DNA from: Oscillospiraceae bacterium | Lineage (GTDB): Bacteria > Bacillota > Clostridia > Oscillospirales > Oscillospiraceae | NCBI GenBank assembly: GCA_029257695.1 | Contig: JARIAU010000025.1 | Span: forward strand, 1-64,000 | Reading direction: 5' to 3' | DNA: 64,000 nt | Part shown: in pieces, positions 5,734-14,862 of the stretch | How positions within the stretch are numbered: position 1 is the stretch's first letter | Layout of the letters: each line of letters opens with the position of its first letter | Notes under the pieces: model-generated | What the model saw: only the letters and a program-made list of their open reading frames with translations | Told to the model about the DNA's origin: nothing | Databases searched by the model: none | Position numbers and translations under genes: made by a program

Positions 5734-7785
5734 TTACTTCACCCAAACACCGGAGCCATTCACATAATAGCCATCGACCCAGGTATCAGCAGCCATCCAG
5801 CCGCCGGGATAGAAGTAGTAGCAGGAACCATCGATCCACTGCCAACCAGTCTGCATATCGCCGCTGGCGCCCAGATAGTACCAGTAGCCGTTGATCTGCT
5901 GCCAGCCGGTCTGCATATCGCCGCTGGTGCCCAGATAATACCAGTAGCCGTTGATCTGCTGCCAACCGGTCTGCATATCGCCGCTGGTGCCCAGATAGTA
6001 CCAGTAGCCATTGATCTGCTGCCAGCCGGTCTGCATATCGCCGCTGAAGCCCAGATAGTACCAGTAGCCGTTGATCTGCTGCCAGCCGGTCTGCATGTAG
6101 CCGTCTTCAGCGAAGTAATACCAGTAACCATCAATCTGCTGCCAACCGGTGACATAGGTCTCGTTGAAATCGTTGTACCACCAGCCGTAGTCATTGTGCT
6201 GCCAGCCGGTCTTGTCCTCGGTGACATGGTCAAAGCTGTAAACAGGCATGACCTTGTTCGTCATAGCGGTGGGCACAAAGGGCTCGGCCTGATCACCCTT
6301 CAAATAGGCCTTCAGTTCCGTCACCACGCTGTTGCTCATCTTCAGAATCTGCTTGGCCAGATCCATGCCCAGTTCGGTGGCCTTTTGGGCGGCCTGTGCA
6401 GGATCCTTGGCATACAGCTTGGCCATTTCAACATCAATGGCCTTCTGCTGCTCGATCAGGCTCTTCTGATACTCCTCAAAGTAAGCCTTCACGCTCTTTG
6501 CGCAGGTCTCACGGTTTGCATAGCACAGGTTGTTGATGACCTGGAAGTTCCAGTTGATGGAGTTGTCCACCGGATTCTTGCTGGGATTGCGATAGTTCTC
6601 CAGCGTATCCGTAATCATTGCGGTATAGAAAGGAACATAAACAGAGAACTCAGCATCAGCCATGGCCTGCCACTGCAGAGTGGCCAGCTTCTCGGGCATA
6701 TTCTGTCTGATTTCAAACACATGGCACTCGGCCTGTCTGTTGTTGCCGATGGCATAGATGCTCTCATCCTTGTTGGAGTCCATCTTGGAGCCCTGGCCAC
6801 GGTAAGCCAGCCACTGCAGCACATCCAGAGTGGACATCTGCTTGGTGGGGTCAATGAACAGAGGCAGGGGATTCACGCCGTTGTTCACATTGGTGACATC
6901 CAGCTTATTGGCCTCTTCCTCGTTCACATAGAACATACCCTGATAGTATCTGCTGTACTGACCCTTACCAGAGTCTCTCACAGCATAGGTCTTGGCCACA
7001 TCAATGTTGCCCTTCTCGTCGGTCTTCAGGAATCCATTGTCCTGTGCCAGCTTCACGAGATTCTCGGAAACGATCACATTCTCGGTGTCCTTCACATCGA
7101 TGACACCCAGCAGCATGATGTTGGGCTGCACGGAAACCTTATCGGTGGGCAGCTTAACGGCAGCGTACTGGTGACCGGAAACGATCTCCATGTACCAGCT
7201 CTCGTGAATATCGCTGATCATCAGGGAGTTGCACTCGCCGGCGCCATAGGTGTCGATGACATTGGCCAGCAGCTTCACAGCTTCTTTTGCAGTGGCAGCG
7301 CCACCCAGCAGGACGCTGGGAATGGAGATCTCACAGATGCCGGCACCCTCCACCAGCGGATCCGCCTTCTTGGCTTCTTCGTTATACTTGGTGGAAACGG
7401 TGGAAGTGACACTGAGGCCCTTTTCGTTCTGACCGGCAGCACCATAGGCAATGGAAAGGCATTCGCCGTTGGGGCCCATCACAGTTTCCTCCTGCTCAGG
7501 GGTGTCCTTCACATATGTATAGGCATAGGTGTGCTTGGGATAGGGCATCTTAAACCCGTATGCATCCTCATACATGGCGCCCTCTGCCCAATCCTTAGCG
7601 GGCTCGACGCCAAACATCTTGTCGTACATATCGCCAATGTCTTCGGATCTGCCCACATAGGTGCTGCCATTCTGGCTTTTGTCTTTGCCGACATAGATGC
7701 CGGTGCAGGCAAACGCAGACGGAATGCTGGACAGTGCCAGAAGCAGTACCAAACTGAGGGATACTACTTTCTTCGTAATTTTCAT
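5734..7785 (-). CDS. Secreted C69-family peptidase (dipeptidase-like) with C-terminal choline-binding/cell-wall-binding repeats
   Basis: Signal peptide followed by ACTGIYVGKD (N-terminal Cys nucleophile of C69) and C-terminal GWQQINGYWYYLGTSGDMQT repeats. Confidence 0.9.
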   Translation of the reverse strand: MKITKKVVSLSLVLLLALSSIPSAFACTGIYVGKDKSQNGSTYVGRSEDIGDMYDKMFGVEPAKDWAEGAMYEDAYGFKMPYPKHTYAYTYVKDTPEQEETVMGPNGECLSIAYGAAGQNEKGLSVTSTVSTKYNEEAKKADPLVEGAGICEISIPSVLLGGAATAKEAVKLLANVIDTYGAGECNSLMISDIHESWYMEIVSGHQYAAVKLPTDKVSVQPNIMLLGVIDVKDTENVIVSENLVKLAQDNGFLKTDEKGNIDVAKTYAVRDSGKGQYSRYYQGMFYVNEEEANKLDVTNVNNGVNPLPLFIDPTKQMSTLDVLQWLAYRGQGSKMDSNKDESIYAIGNNRQAECHVFEIRQNMPEKLATLQWQAMADAEFSVYVPFYTAMITDTLENYRNPSKNPVDNSINWNFQVINNLCYANRETCAKSVKAYFEEYQKSLIEQQKAIDVEMAKLYAKDPAQAAQKATELGMDLAKQILKMSNSVVTELKAYLKGDQAEPFVPTAMTNKVMPVYSFDHVTEDKTGWQHNDYGWWYNDFNETYVTGWQQIDGYWYYFAEDGYMQTGWQQINGYWYYLGFSGDMQTGWQQINGYWYYLGTSGDMQTGWQQINGYWYYLGTSGDMQTGWQQINGYWYYLGASGDMQTGWQWIDGSCYYFYPGGWMAADTWVDGYYVNGSGVWVK
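5821..6180 (-). repeat. In-frame 60-bp tandem repeat array encoding 20-aa cell-wall-binding repeats
   Basis: Exact 60-bp periodicity, with each 60-nt line of the listing from 5821 to 6121 a diverging copy; central copies nearly identical. Confidence 0.9.
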
Positions 7786-8168: not shown

Positions 8169-8208
8169 CAAAAACCAGACGAGCTTCGCCGGAAGTTCGT
8201 CTGGTTTT
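8169..8208 (-). terminator. Intrinsic terminator downstream of the 8272..11588 operon
   Basis: AAAACCAGACGAGCTTC-GCCG-GAAGTTCGTCTGGTTTT stem (one G-T pair), T-rich flank. Confidence 0.75.
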
Positions 8209-8271: not shown

Positions 8272-9354
8272 CTATACTTGCATCGAGGCGAAGGAGCTGC
8301 CCCCTGTTCTTCCCCACCGTCTGCGAACGGCAGCAATCAGGACTGCGCCCATCAAGACCCCGCCCGACAAGACCATGGTGAAATAGCTTCCGAGCCCACG
8401 GCTTAAAACCATGGAGCTTTGGAGCAGCGCAGGCGGAAACACTCGCTTGAAATAGTGCAAGAAATGGTTCTCCGCAATCCCGATACCGCCCGGAAAGGGC
8501 AGTGCCGCACAGCTGATATACAGCGCCGATTGCAGCGCAACGATCTGGAACAGCGAAACATCGTTCAATCCCAGTGCCTTATAGACCCAAAACGGTGCCG
8601 AGTGCATGGCGAGGATACGGAGCAAGGTGGCAAGGCAATTCACCAGACAAATCCTTTTATGGCGGCGAAACAGTGCTGCACTGGTCTGATATTGTGCAAT
8701 CGCCGCTTCGGCACCGGCACGCACGGAAGCCGCTCGTTCCTTGGAGCAAACGGACACCATCCAAACCACTCCGGCGGTCAGCCGATGGATCAGCCGTTTT
8801 GTAAACATGGCACAAAGCAGCAGCACCAAAAGTGCCGTATTCAGACCCAGTCCCAGCCACAGCAGCCAAAGGTAGGGGCCCAGCAACCGATGAATCAGCG
8901 GTCCAAAAGAAAGATAGCCCACCACTCCCAACAGGGTGACTGCAAACTGATAGCACGCCAGCTCCATGGCCAAAGCCAATGTTCCGTGCACCACAGACAC
9001 TCCTTTTTTATGCATGAGGTACAGCTGCATAGGCTGTCCGCCGGTGGCTGCCGGTGTGATTGCACTGAAAAAATTCCCTGCAAAGGTATACAGCAGACAT
9101 TGGCGGAAGGACTGCACTTCCCCCAGCAGCCCAAGGTTCCGCCGCAGCGTCCAGGTTTCCACCGCCAGCATCAGAACCACCGCAGCAAGGCCGCACAGCA
9201 AATATTCTGTCCGACTGTGCAGCGCTGTATGAAGTACGGAACGAAAGTCCGCCTGCGAAAACACCGCACGATAGGTAATCACACCAATCAGGACGAACAA
9301 CCCACCGTTAATCAGTATGTTCTTCAAGGAATTCAGAAATCGTTTCAAAAACAT
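8272..9354 (-). CDS. Lysylphosphatidylglycerol synthase TM-region / flippase-like integral membrane protein
   Basis: Multi-TM protein with FFSAITPAATGGQPMQLYLMHKKGV motif typical of the LPG_synthase_TM family. Confidence 0.85.
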   Translation of the reverse strand: MFLKRFLNSLKNILINGGLFVLIGVITYRAVFSQADFRSVLHTALHSRTEYLLCGLAAVVLMLAVETWTLRRNLGLLGEVQSFRQCLLYTFAGNFFSAITPAATGGQPMQLYLMHKKGVSVVHGTLALAMELACYQFAVTLLGVVGYLSFGPLIHRLLGPYLWLLWLGLGLNTALLVLLLCAMFTKRLIHRLTAGVVWMVSVCSKERAASVRAGAEAAIAQYQTSAALFRRHKRICLVNCLATLLRILAMHSAPFWVYKALGLNDVSLFQIVALQSALYISCAALPFPGGIGIAENHFLHYFKRVFPPALLQSSMVLSRGLGSYFTMVLSGGVLMGAVLIAAVRRRWGRTGGSSFASMQV

Positions 9355-10012
9355 ACCCCTCTTCCTTCCAGTAAGGAATCATTCGTTCCAAGGCCCCGAT
9401 GGTTTTCAGCGGTGCCTCCCCTGTTCCCCGTCCGTCATGAAGACAGATGACCGCCGTTCCATGGACCTGTGATCGCAGCTTCCGGCACAACCCGTCCACG
9501 CTGGCATCCTTGGCCCAATCTCCCACGATCACTGTCCACAGCACCTGTTTCAGCCGATACCGTCTGCACAGCCATAGCCCAAGCAAGGTTGCATGACCCC
9601 AAGGCGGACGGTAATAGGCCGGTTTGGCCTCCAAATCCGTGAGAATCTGCATACTTTTTCGAAAATCCATCCACAGGCTGTGGGGCAGCTGAAGAATCTG
9701 GTTCTGATGATTCAGCGAATGCAGTCCGATGGTATGCCCCTCCTTCTGAATCCGCCGAAGCAGCTCCGGGTGCTGTGCCGCCGTCGAAGCCAACAGAAAG
9801 AAACTGGCATGGATTTCCTGTTCCGCCAGAAGATCCAACAGCTTCGGCGTATACCGTGGATCCATCCCGTCATCAAAGGTCAAGCACAGGGTCTTTCCGC
9901 TCCTGCACCGCTTACGGAGTGGATTGGTGCAGCGGAGCACCACCGTAGTGAGCCCTCCGACCAACCGCATTCCGAGCCAAAGCGCCCCTGCGATAAGCAG
10001 CACCTTAAGCAT
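9308..10012 (-). CDS. Polysaccharide deacetylase (NodB domain)
   Basis: TLCLTFDDGMDPRYTPKLLDLLAEQ, HSLNHQ, YRPPWGH motifs; start chosen at MLKVLL (ATG 10012), overlapping the upstream stop. Confidence 0.9.
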   Translation of the reverse strand: MLKVLLIAGALWLGMRLVGGLTTVVLRCTNPLRKRCRSGKTLCLTFDDGMDPRYTPKLLDLLAEQEIHASFFLLASTAAQHPELLRRIQKEGHTIGLHSLNHQNQILQLPHSLWMDFRKSMQILTDLEAKPAYYRPPWGHATLLGLWLCRRYRLKQVLWTVIVGDWAKDASVDGLCRKLRSQVHGTAVICLHDGRGTGEAPLKTIGALERMIPYWKEEGYVFETISEFLEEHTD

Positions 10013-11039
10013 AACACCCCTCCAGCTCCTGCCACTGCCGACGCCCATCCTCCATATTCCGTTTCATCTGCGCCATATGCGTTTGATAACTGCGGTATCT
10101 GGATTCATCCGCCAACAGCTGCAAAATCTGGCCACAGGCATCTGTACGCCGCCGGATGACCATTCCGATCTGATTTTCCTCAATAAATCCAGCGTTTTCC
10201 ATCTCATGTTGGTAGACCGGATGCATAGCAACATACGGTGTGGTGGCATAAATGCTCTCAAACAAAGAAACTCCGCCGGGCTTGGAAATCACCACATCCG
10301 CTGCTGCCAGATAATCTTGAATCCGATCCACAAATCCGGTGGCTTGCACCCAGGGATACTCTGCCCGGATTTTTTCAAGCAGCGGCTGATTTTTTCCGGT
10401 GATGACCGTGATCCGCAGCTCTGGATGCAGTGCGAACCCTCGCAGCAGCTCTTCCAGCCACGGGATCAGCCCCAGGCCACCCCCCATGATGAGCAGATGC
10501 TTTTCCTTCTGCATCCCCCTTTTTTCCGCAAGGCCTCGCACTTCCTCCCGAATCGGAATCCCTCGGATCCGGATCCGCTCCGGTGAAATTCCCAGTTTCA
10601 TCAGTTGATCGGCCGTCTCGGTTCCCGCCACCAAATAACACTCCGCATGGGGATAGAGCCAACCGGCATGAACCCCCACATCTGTGATGCAAATGTGAAC
10701 CGGGATCTCCAGCCGCCCCAGCTTCCTGCCGCAGCCGGACCAAGTGGTCACCACCCGATCCGGCCGGATGCGTTCCAGTTCCCGCTGCACTGCCGCCGCC
10801 GATTTCCGTCCCTCATATGTTCCTCTGCCAATGCGGTTGATCGCATTATACAGCCGGCCATGCCGACAAATCACACGGCGAAACACCTCATAGATCCGCT
10901 CTGCCTGATTGGGATACAGCAGCTGCACCACATCACTGATCTCGACCGTATGCCCCATGCAGCGATACTCTTCCGCCAAGGCATCGGCGGCACACCGGTG
11001 CCCGCTCCCAAACCCAGAGGTCAAAATCCAAACCTTCAT
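10005..11039 (-). CDS. MGDG synthase / processive diacylglycerol glycosyltransferase-like protein (GT28/MurG-like)
   Basis: MKVWILTSGFGSGHRCAADALAEEY N-terminus; VVISKPGGVSLFE motif in the C-terminal half. Confidence 0.85.
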   Translation of the reverse strand: MKVWILTSGFGSGHRCAADALAEEYRCMGHTVEISDVVQLLYPNQAERIYEVFRRVICRHGRLYNAINRIGRGTYEGRKSAAAVQRELERIRPDRVVTTWSGCGRKLGRLEIPVHICITDVGVHAGWLYPHAECYLVAGTETADQLMKLGISPERIRIRGIPIREEVRGLAEKRGMQKEKHLLIMGGGLGLIPWLEELLRGFALHPELRITVITGKNQPLLEKIRAEYPWVQATGFVDRIQDYLAAADVVISKPGGVSLFESIYATTPYVAMHPVYQHEMENAGFIEENQIGMVIRRRTDACGQILQLLADESRYRSYQTHMAQMKRNMEDGRRQWQELEGCYA

Positions 11040-11048
11040 TTTTTCTCC

Positions 11049-11588
11049 TCACACAGGCTGATACTGCCCGATCGCTCCGGTGTACACAAATTCCGCCGAG
11101 GAAACGCTCAAAAAATCATGCGGCCGCACCAGCGACGACGGCTTATCCAGCACATGGATTTCCGCCCGCTGCAAGGCCTCCGCCACAAACTGCGAGCAAA
11201 ACATCCGGTTTTCCCGCTCCGCCGGGATGCCCCGGTAGCAGTAGATCAACCCCAAAAGATTGTACTTGCAGCCGGCCTGTTCATACTCCGCAATCACCTG
11301 CCGCAGCGTTTCTTTTTCTGCTCGGCTGACTGCCAGTCGCAGCAGCACTATATCCGAGCGGTGATGCGCTGCAAAAAAGCCGTGATTGCGGCCCTCCACC
11401 ACAAATCCGGCTGCAAACATATTCCACAGTTCCTTCCGTCCCATGGAATAAACCTCTTCCAAGCTGTCGTCCAAGGCAATGGAGCAGTGGTTATAACTCA
11501 CGCCCAACAACCGCTGGATCACTATCCCCAAAAGGGTATTTGTTTTCGACACCATGATATAGATATAGTCTTGTTCTCTGGGTTCCAT
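11049..11588 (-). CDS. Putative permuted papain-fold / YiiX-like (NlpC/P60 superfamily) protein
   Basis: His motif YNHCSIALDD followed by FCSQFVAEAL Cys motif (permuted order); ATG 11588 preceded by GGAGGA. Confidence 0.6.
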   Translation of the reverse strand: MEPREQDYIYIMVSKTNTLLGIVIQRLLGVSYNHCSIALDDSLEEVYSMGRKELWNMFAAGFVVEGRNHGFFAAHHRSDIVLLRLAVSRAEKETLRQVIAEYEQAGCKYNLLGLIYCYRGIPAERENRMFCSQFVAEALQRAEIHVLDKPSSLVRPHDFLSVSSAEFVYTGAIGQYQPV

Positions 11589-11603
11589 ATGAATTTCCTC
11601 CAA

Positions 11604-11644
11604 AAAACAAAGGCGTGCATTGCTCGTCTGCACGCCTTTGTTTT
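11604..11644 (-). terminator. Terminator/attenuator-like hairpin directly upstream of the RBS of 11049..11588
   Basis: AAAACAAAGGCGTGCA-9 nt-TGCACGCCTTTGTTTT perfect 16-bp stem, with a T-run on the minus strand running into TTGGAGGA. Confidence 0.75.
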
Positions 11645-12188: not shown

Positions 12189-13217
12189 CTAAACATTCAC
12201 CGGAATACTCAGCGTAATGAGGAACCGATCCTCCTCGCAGCGCCATGCCACCGTGCCTCCATGCTGCGACACGATATGTTCCATGGTTTGCAGTCCCAAT
12301 CGGTGGCTTTCGCTTTCCCGTTCTTCCGGACAGATCGCATTGGACTGCTCCAGCGTCAGCCAATTCTCCTGTACCGACAGTCGGAGCCGCACCGGTTTCG
12401 TCTCATCCGCATACTTTTGGATATTGGAAAGCAAGTTATCAAATACTCGAAATATCTCTTGAATGTCAAAGTAACCGGAGAACGGGGTGCATTCCGACCA
12501 ATCCGTTTCCACGGTAAAGGTGTCCGACAGAACACTTTCCCAGTCAGCTACCACCTGCTGCAGCAGCAGCTGTCCGTTTTCAAAATACTCCGCATGACGG
12601 ACATCCTGCTCCAGAAGCCGCTCCATCAGCTCCTTCATTTGCTGCCCCTTGCGAAGGGTAAGATCAATGTAAGCATCCACCTCTTCCTCCGTCCGATTCT
12701 TTTTTGCGGCCAGAAGCTCCGAATAAGACAGCACAGAGGTGAGGGGGGTGCGGATGTCATGGGCAATCGAACGGATGAACCGTTCCCGCTCTTCTGCCAT
12801 CGCCGCCTCCTTGCGGCTCAGGTTCCGTTCCGTATCCGAAAGATAGTTGATGCTCCGAGCCAATTCGGTCAGCTCATTCTCCCCTTCCTCCGGAATTCGG
12901 TAATCTGCACGCATGTGATGGGTGCGGAGGGCCTCGATCCCGTCAATGATTTCCTCCAGATACACCAGCTTTTTCCCCAACAGAAAAAGGAAGATCACCA
13001 CAAAAAACAGTGCGGATGCCAGCAGACAGATTCCCTGCACCCAAATACTCACCACATCCAGCAGATACTCATGGTTCACTTTCCCCACTTGCTCCAGATA
13101 CCGGTAGCAAATGGAGGAAACTGTATGATCCAGAAAGCCAAACAGAAACACCGAAATCAGCATCGACACCGCCAACAGCACCAAAATCTCTTTGGAAAGT
13201 TTCTTTTTAGTCCACAT
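12189..13217 (-). CDS. Sensor histidine kinase
   Basis: Two N-terminal TMs, FIRSIAHDIRTPLTSVLSYSELL H-box, C-terminal HATPase region; overlaps the upstream response regulator. Confidence 0.9.
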   Translation of the reverse strand: MWTKKKLSKEILVLLAVSMLISVFLFGFLDHTVSSICYRYLEQVGKVNHEYLLDVVSIWVQGICLLASALFFVVIFLFLLGKKLVYLEEIIDGIEALRTHHMRADYRIPEEGENELTELARSINYLSDTERNLSRKEAAMAEERERFIRSIAHDIRTPLTSVLSYSELLAAKKNRTEEEVDAYIDLTLRKGQQMKELMERLLEQDVRHAEYFENGQLLLQQVVADWESVLSDTFTVETDWSECTPFSGYFDIQEIFRVFDNLLSNIQKYADETKPVRLRLSVQENWLTLEQSNAICPEERESESHRLGLQTMEHIVSQHGGTVAWRCEEDRFLITLSIPVNV

Positions 13218-13899
13218 AGTACCCTCTTCCCCAAGCGGTTTTGATATACTTCGGTTCTCTGGAATTGTCTCCCAGCTTTTTTCTCAGGTTCTTGATATGC
13301 ATCATGACCGCACTGTCACTGATTGCATTTTCCTCCCATACGGACTGATAAATATGCTCCAGCGAAAAGATTTTCTTTCTGTTTTGAACCAAAAGGGCCA
13401 GAATCTTGTATTCCGTATAGGTCAGATTGATCGGTTCCCCACTGCGGGTCACCGACTGGCCATTCAGATCAACGGTCAGATCCCCCAGCAAACAAATTTC
13501 ACTGCACTCCGGCAGGGTCTCCGTTTTGATGCGGCCCCTGCGGAGAATCGCTTTCACCCGCATCAGCAGCTCAATATTGGAAAACGGCTTGACCAGATAG
13601 TCATCCGCTCCCACCGAAAAGCCCATCACCTTGTCTGACTCTCCGGAATATGCCGTCAGGAAGAACAGCGGTGCATCGTACCTTCTGCGGATCTCCGCTC
13701 CCGCCATAAATCCGTTCTGTTCCGGCATATTGATATCCAAAATGTATAAATCAATGTCCGCAGCCGCCCGCTCCACAGCTTCTCTCCCATTGCAGGCTGT
13801 CACGACCTCATAGCCCTCGCTTCGCAGAAGCAGGCAGAGAACTTCACGGATCTCATTTTCGTCATCTGCCACCAAAATACAGGTTTGATTGTTTCGCAT
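13207..13899 (-). CDS. OmpR/PhoB-family response regulator
   Basis: ILVADDENEIREVLCLLLRSEGYEV receiver; winged-helix C-terminus ...LRKKLGDNSREPKYIKTAWGRGYYVD; ATG 13899 with GGAGGAAAG RBS. Confidence 0.93.
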   Translation of the reverse strand: MRNNQTCILVADDENEIREVLCLLLRSEGYEVVTACNGREAVERAAADIDLYILDINMPEQNGFMAGAEIRRRYDAPLFFLTAYSGESDKVMGFSVGADDYLVKPFSNIELLMRVKAILRRGRIKTETLPECSEICLLGDLTVDLNGQSVTRSGEPINLTYTEYKILALLVQNRKKIFSLEHIYQSVWEENAISDSAVMMHIKNLRKKLGDNSREPKYIKTAWGRGYYVD

Positions 13900-14189
13900 G
13901 GTTGCTTTCCTCCCTCGCTTACACACAAGCTCCCTCTCCACCCCGTTCATAGGGCTGCTCATGCCGGACACACTCGTTTTACACTTGCGATTGAACCTTC
14001 GTGGAGGTATTTCCATCCGCATCATGCACATCTGCAAAATACGCCGGCCTCGTATCCGTCACAAATACAAGTGGTGTTTCCACGATCCATCCCTCACAAG
14101 ATTTCTTCTTTTTTCATTTTACACCGATATTCGAAAAAATCCACTACTACCCTGAACAAACTCGTTTTTGTTGTTTCGCTTTTCTCGGA

Positions 14190-14840
14190 AGAGGGTGCTG
14201 CCTGTGGCAAAGCTTCCCTTGCCTGCAATAAGGCCAGCCGCCGGAACTACCTGTTGAGCGGCCTGATTGAATGCGAAACCTGTGGTGCCACCTATGTGGG
14301 CCACACCAGCACCAATAAAAAAGGCTACCAGACCAGCTATTACTGCTGCGGCAACAAATACCGCACCCATGAGTGCAAGGCAAAAAATATAAACGCCAAT
14401 CAGCTGGAGACCTTTGTGGTCGCTCAGTTGAAGGCGTTCCTCGGCGCACAAGATTATTCGAACGCAGCCCGAGAGATTGCGGAGCAGGTGAACGGCGCCA
14501 GCGTGGATCTCTCTGCTGAAAAAAAAGAATTATCCACAATCAAAGATAAAATTGCAAATGGTGTGCGTGCGATCCTCTCCGGCGTGGACATTCCGGAGTT
14601 GCAGACTGAATTGGACCGGCTGCGTGTCCGGCAGTCCGAACTGGAGGACATCATTCAACGGGCCAGCACTACTCGGCCCCATGTTGACCCGGCCGCCATC
14701 GAAACAATGCTGCGAGAAGATGCCCAGCGTATCGACACCAACCTCACCCCCGAGGAGCTCACCGCTCTGATCCGTCAGTATATAAAAATATACGCCCACA
14801 TCGACGGATCATGTTCCGTAAATGTAGGCGCACATATTTC

Positions 14841-14862
<22 letters not shown>
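14190..14862 (+). pseudogene. N-terminally truncated large serine recombinase (zinc beta-ribbon and coiled-coil C-terminus only)
   Basis: RRNYLLSGLIECETCGATYVGHTSTNKKGYQTSYYCCGNKYRTHECKAKNINANQLE...; no resolvase catalytic domain upstream. Confidence 0.8.

Follow-up and report, generated by a model that had tools for sequence, protein, structure and literature searches.

A probable HexSDF-type aminoglycolipid operon opened by a permuted papain-like protein gene

Three of the four genes analysed here, which encode a GT28 glycosyltransferase, a deacetylase and an LPG_TM flippase in the order S-D-F, probably make up a HexSDF pathway of the C. difficile type, a reading to which we assign a probability of roughly seven in ten from sequence comparison. 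They lie in the window, by which we mean the whole 64,000-nucleotide stretch of DNA under analysis, whose source we take to be a gut bacterium. C. difficile requires three genes, hexS for an MGDG-synthase-type enzyme, hexD for a polysaccharide deacetylase and hexF for an MprF-like flippase, to make aminohexosyl-hexosyldiradylglycerol (HNHDRG), which accounts for ~16% of its lipids; the three genes are controlled by the adjoining HexRK (PMC10128005, 2023). In B. subtilis, HexSDF is sufficient to yield HNHDRG from the monohexosyl-diradylglycerol supplied by UgtA (PMC11898633). The first-pass annotation had proposed a pathway that synthesises, trims and translocates a membrane glycolipid, which was right in kind and agrees with HexSDF/HexRK, but for three of the four genes this pathway is a known one. 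What is new is the linked C92-like enzyme, the altered HexK with its four-TM partner, the terminator at the first ribosome-binding site and a prediction of HexD topology.

Operon anatomy and the three-gene core

All four minus-strand ORFs at 8272-11588 are intact, tightly coupled and located where they had initially been placed, and the reading frames, their overlaps, Pfam domains in three of the genes and a hairpin beyond hexF bear out the description of a compact operon closed by a terminator (Table 1). The C92-like gene and the glycosyltransferase gene are 9 nt apart, the deacetylase gene overlaps the latter by 8 nt, and the LPG_TM gene overlaps the deacetylase gene by 47 nt. Pfam assigns the glycosyltransferase to MGDG_synth (2e-10) and Glyco_tran_28_C (1e-8), the deacetylase to Polysacc_deac_1 (3e-24) and the flippase-like protein to LPG_synthase_TM (6e-28); a sequence search of solved structures with the last of these found no relative. 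The catalytic motifs of the glycosyltransferase are intact, as are TFDDG, HSLNH, RPPWG and LHD in the HexD homologue. The two-component system reported upstream on the same strand is likewise present, as a response regulator and a kinase together with a small four-TM protein. On its downstream side the operon is directly followed by a gene (5734-7785, minus strand) for a peptidase C69 with choline-binding repeats.

Table 1. Genes and terminators of the putative hex operon and its upstream flank, in window coordinates
Feature	Coordinates	Strand	Remarks
Intrinsic terminator 3' of hexF	8169..8206	-	-25.5 kcal/mol (hairpin region)
HexF homologue, LPG_synthase_TM flippase-like protein	8272..9354	-	360 aa; GGQP and PFPGG motifs
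HexD homologue, NodB-type deacetylase	9308..10012	-	234 aa; one N-terminal anchor
HexS homologue, GT28/MGDG-synthase-type glycosyltransferase	10005..11039	-	344 aa
C92/YiiX-type permuted papain-like protein gene	11049..11588	-	ATG start, 179 aa; first in operon
Intrinsic terminator hairpin, possible attenuator	11602..11644	-	16-bp stem and T run; abuts RBS of C92-like gene
Small membrane protein, ~four TM helices	11768..12109	-	113 aa; conserved in G478
HexK-like histidine kinase	12189..13217	-	342 aa; two TM helices, almost no extracytoplasmic domain
HexR-like response regulator, OmpR type	13207..13899	-	Pfam domain; C. difficile best match

The link to C. difficile rests on a sampled locus (L123) that carries a glyA-like gene, recognised by sequence, followed by glycosyltransferase, deacetylase, flippase, response regulator and histidine kinase genes; we equate it with the published hex locus because the glyA-like gene lies upstream and the regulator and kinase lie downstream as described (PMC10128005). 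For each of the three window proteins the best C. difficile match falls at this locus, the bit scores of the best and next-best matches being 197.6 and 106.9 for the glycosyltransferase, 162 and 96 for the deacetylase and 137.5 and 102 for the flippase, and the reverse search, run for HexS only, returned the window glycosyltransferase as the best match in its genome. Among protein models, this glycosyltransferase matches HexS and diglucosyl-DAG synthase best. The window response regulator shares 53% identity with the one encoded directly after hexF in C. difficile, the next best match reaching 38%. Identity to the C. difficile proteins is ~30-31% for HexS and ~30% for HexF.

These scores also bear on whether the operon might instead modify undecaprenyl-linked or wall polymers through a MurG-like glycosyltransferase and a peptidoglycan-type deacetylase. 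The glycosyltransferase is weakly similar to murG (46 bits) and the deacetylase matches the sporulation models PdaB and PdaA below their cut-offs, but the match to HexS, HexD and HexF, the makers of a diradylglycerol lipid, is far stronger (PMC10128005; PMC11898633), and a HexD that is cytosolic, as predicted below, could not reach an outside wall. We consider this reading highly improbable.

Under the HexSDF reading, HexS at the inner leaflet would add N-acetyl-hexosamine to hexosyl-diradylglycerol, for which a second MGDG_synth-type (UgtP-like) glycosyltransferase elsewhere in the genome (G000 contig 31, 78 bits, truncated where the contig ends) is a candidate supplier. HexD would then remove the acetyl group to leave a free amine, and HexF would move the aminoglycolipid to the outer leaflet. 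The genes, their order, orthology, motifs, conservation and charge bias are observations made here, and the chemistry is that of the C. difficile literature; for the window genome, chemistry and regulation, as well as the location of HexD and everything about the C92 reaction, are what we infer.

Deacetylase topology and the distribution of hex modules

The anchor of HexD suggests on which side of the membrane the acetyl group would be removed. All 48 HexD homologues whose N-terminal anchor is clear carry more Lys/Arg after the anchor than before it (means 3.75 and 0.44). This is a strong trend, even though start codons were assigned by a rule and the set includes close or identical copies, so that it does not amount to 48 independent cases. 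The window HexD has its positive charges on the C-terminal side of its anchor. Control deacetylases from C. difficile and the window genome mostly show reverse or equal charges, the one exception having an uncertain start. By the positive-inside rule, HexD should thus face the cytosol, and we predict that it is a cytosolic deacetylase acting before flipping. The favoured order would be synthesis, deacetylation in the cytosol and then flipping, which refines the synthesise, trim and translocate sequence proposed earlier. The 2023 HexSDF model prefers deacetylation outside and lists the cytosolic option, since HexSD without HexF still yields product (PMC10128005). The charge pattern of the anchor therefore bears on a point left open in that paper, and it fits lipid production by HexSD in the absence of HexF. 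Some Lachnospiraceae HexDs seem to have no anchor and start at the catalytic motif (seen directly at L121, L129 and L179); shorter ORFs suggest that L156, L170 and L172 may be similar.

Searching species genomes with the glycosyltransferase alignment gave 80 loci, with both deacetylase and flippase genes adjoining at 46, the flippase only at 23, the deacetylase only at 3 and neither at 8, some of them at contig edges. Among their sources are Clostridium, Terrisporobacter, Anaerofustis, Flavonifractor, Intestinimonas, Erysipelotrichaceae and bins labelled Mycoplasmatota. Orthologous S-D-F or S-F modules are widespread in Clostridia and Erysipelotrichia. A close HexR-type regulator (E < 1e-60) is nearby at 11 of the 80 loci and another response regulator at 18. 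In the literature HNHDRG has been presented as a lipid known to date from C. difficile alone; given S-D-F modules in dozens of Clostridia and Erysipelotrichia, gut commensals included, amino-sugar glycolipids are probably common there. One locus (L113:6912-9044) encodes a natural HexF-HexS fusion of 710 aa, with an LPG_TM flippase-like domain joined to an MGDG-type glycosyltransferase and a deacetylase gene before it.

The full C92-GT-PDA-LPG order recurs in three further genomes (G478, G751 and G799), which belong to a single second family within the same taxonomic order, so the arrangement is not due to chance and the neighbourhood is conserved beyond the window genome. G478 shares the entire RR-HK-TM-C92-S-D-F block. 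In the glycosyltransferase tree the four C92-linked sequences form one clade (support 100/100) on a stem of 1.38, separate from the other HexS clades, including the hex glycosyltransferases of the window's own family, and they lack a short insertion present in most of the remaining HexS sequences. Neither C92 nor glycosyltransferase gene was found in the sole sampled genome of the window's genus, which is 79% complete. Because the clade stands apart from own-family hex sequences and the congener lacks both genes, horizontal transfer of the C92-hex block is plausible. Directly 3' of hexF, G751 (L254:3929-4846) and G799 (L255:11187-12203) carry a gene for an Acyl_transf_3-type membrane protein, the former copy resembling the VanT membrane domain.

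The long stem, together with ~30% identity to C. difficile HexS, counts against the HexSDF reading in that the donor or acceptor of the window HexS may differ. The same gene logic could serve another acceptor, with the HexS-like enzyme glycosylating phosphatidylglycerol or some other lipid, as in glucosaminyl-phosphatidylglycerol formation by GpgSDF of Pseudomonas aeruginosa, where glycosyltransferase, deacetylase and flippase likewise make an amino-sugar lipid (PMC12713373). The missing insertion is in keeping with such a difference, as is G751, one of the four C92-hex genomes, which shows a single MGDG_synth glycosyltransferase. However, GpgS belongs to GT4, GpgD to COG3233 and their acceptor is phosphatidylglycerol, whereas the window enzyme is of the GT28/MGDG type, closest to the HexS and diglucosyl-DAG synthase models, and its genome holds the second UgtP-like enzyme noted above. 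We therefore think a different acceptor unlikely.

The permuted papain-like protein

The protein that opens the operon has no signal peptide and no TM segment, and it scores below the 27-bit gathering cut-off of Pfam C92 (PF05708; E 0.009, 16.5 bits). When 19 of its relatives were scanned individually, only one reached PF05708. Across an alignment of 63 sequences, Cys131 is present in all, His34 and Glu65 in 62 and Tyr109 in 58; these four correspond, in permuted order, to the Cys, His, polar and Tyr residues characteristic of permuted NlpC/P60 enzymes (PMC3142127). Ser48 is also conserved. The single protein found no significant match in a sequence search of solved structures; the family profile was needed, and it reached 3kw0, the solved permuted enzyme BcPPNE, at E 6e-4. 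A structure model built from a three-sequence alignment (pLDDT 74.5, pTM 0.77) gave the same entry as its top PDB match in Foldseek (probability 0.93, TM 0.53, E 0.046), with several viral C92 proteins also matching, so that 3kw0 is the best solved-structure relative by both profile and fold. The assignment in the first-pass annotation of a YiiX-like permuted papain-like member holds by fold and by its conserved His/Cys site, though not by the Pfam threshold. Like YaeF/YiiX and BcPPNE (PMC3142127), the protein has its His before its Cys and a conserved Tyr and acidic residue; unlike them, it falls short of the C92 cut-off, has no signal sequence and is set among glycolipid genes.

Other members of the fold hint at what this protein may act on. 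In permuted NlpC/P60 enzymes the S1 pocket is hydrophobic, and YiiX was found with a fatty acid bound (PMC3142127); LnsA, of the same fold, is part of the S. aureus LnsAB N-acyltransferase (PMC7387801). Since acyl chains are bound or transferred by YiiX, LRAT and LnsA, it is reasonable to suppose a lipid substrate. We put the chances of a lipid role at about even. The C92-like protein would then be a cytosolic thiol enzyme, most likely acting on acyl groups of the lipid or its precursors by hydrolysis or acyl transfer. LnsA, too, is a permuted papain-like protein from a bacterium, and N-acylation of a lipidated amine depends on it (PMC7387801), a likeness drawn by description rather than by sequence; LnsA works with LnsB on a lipoprotein substrate, and the window operon contains no LnsB-type partner gene.

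The earlier placement of this protein in lipid chemistry goes no further than inference, since its relatives elsewhere mostly have no link to hex genes. It could be a bystander or housekeeping protein that is transcribed along with hexSDF, such as an amidase acting on proteins, peptides or the cell wall, which would concern the fourth gene only and leave the HexSDF core intact. Homologues turned up in 39 genomes of a sample of 301 and in 79 of a sample of 199, just 3 of 45 loci whose flanks were inspected, not counting the window, adjoin hex genes (G478, G751 and G799), and no C92-like gene lies within 5 kb of the 80 hex loci found by the glycosyltransferase scan. As such genes are common in genomes where they are not linked to hex, the substrate may be unrelated to the hex lipid. 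Against this, the four hex-linked C92 proteins form one clade (support 98), their genes open the operon in each of the four genomes, which span two families, with gene ends nearly touching, and three unlinked relatives (L081, L082 and L092) also sit beside a two-component system and a VTT-type (DedA-like) membrane protein, Pfam-confirmed in two. We hold the bystander role to be a real possibility, if a somewhat doubtful one. The setting of those three relatives may echo a set of enzyme, lipid mover and sensor. The hex-linked protein offers a concrete, testable context for a family of bacterial enzymes whose function is poorly understood.

No C92 homologue was found among INPHARED phages, and a plasmid search gave scattered matches only. 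Two phage contigs nevertheless carry the domain: on one it forms the last part of a protein of 710 aa (L266:3426-5558), and on the other it is a separate 285-aa protein (L267:4845-5702) whose gene follows one that resembles the N-terminal portion of its L266 counterpart. Longer proteins with a C92-like domain showed no informative partner domain in Pfam.

The upstream two-component system and terminator

The window locus shares with hexSDF/hexRK of C. difficile the three enzyme types and their order, an adjoining orthologous response regulator and a UgtP-like acceptor synthase in the genome (PMC10128005, PMC11898633), but it differs in the C92-like gene that opens the operon, a glycosyltransferase identity of ~31%, a terminator before the operon and two-component genes that lie upstream rather than downstream. 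C. difficile HexK is ~439 aa long, with about 110-120 extracytoplasmic residues between two TM helices, whereas the window kinase has a short loop. By its predicted topology, the window HexK has lost the ~110-residue sensor domain, and it gains an extra four-TM neighbour. The kinase of G478 likewise has almost no outside domain and is followed by the conserved four-TM protein gene. We suggest that the operon belongs to the regulon of this HexRK-like system, and that a HexK without an outside sensor domain may read the membrane itself, possibly together with the four-TM protein.

Between the two-component genes and the operon stands a strong terminator hairpin that the first-pass annotation had missed, its T run touching the ribosome-binding site of the C92-like gene; we count it against the reading of the locus as a HexSDF-type operon in the HexRK regulon. 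The hairpin leaves no room for a promoter before the start codon, so the operon would have to be read through from an upstream promoter or gene, either by attenuation or by leaky termination, and on its anatomy the hairpin is a possible attenuator. A hairpin terminator occupies the same place in G478 and is absent in G751 and G799. Of the two leaders that have the hairpin, that of G478 allows a possible antiterminator pairing, which is not clear in that of the window. An Rfam scan returned no family at threshold, and a Thr_leader match over the terminator was taken as chance (27.6 against 55 bits).

A more speculative scheme would make the C92-like protein an inner-leaflet acyltransferase that N-acylates the amine freed by HexD to give a three-chain N-acyl aminoglycolipid, under a membrane-sensing, attenuation-controlled switch made up of the short-loop HexK, the four-TM protein beside it and the terminator that precedes the first gene; we regard this combination as very unlikely. 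Upstream of the response regulator, an ORF on the plus strand (13885-14862) resembles, by eye, the C-terminal part of a serine recombinase and may be a trace of mobility.
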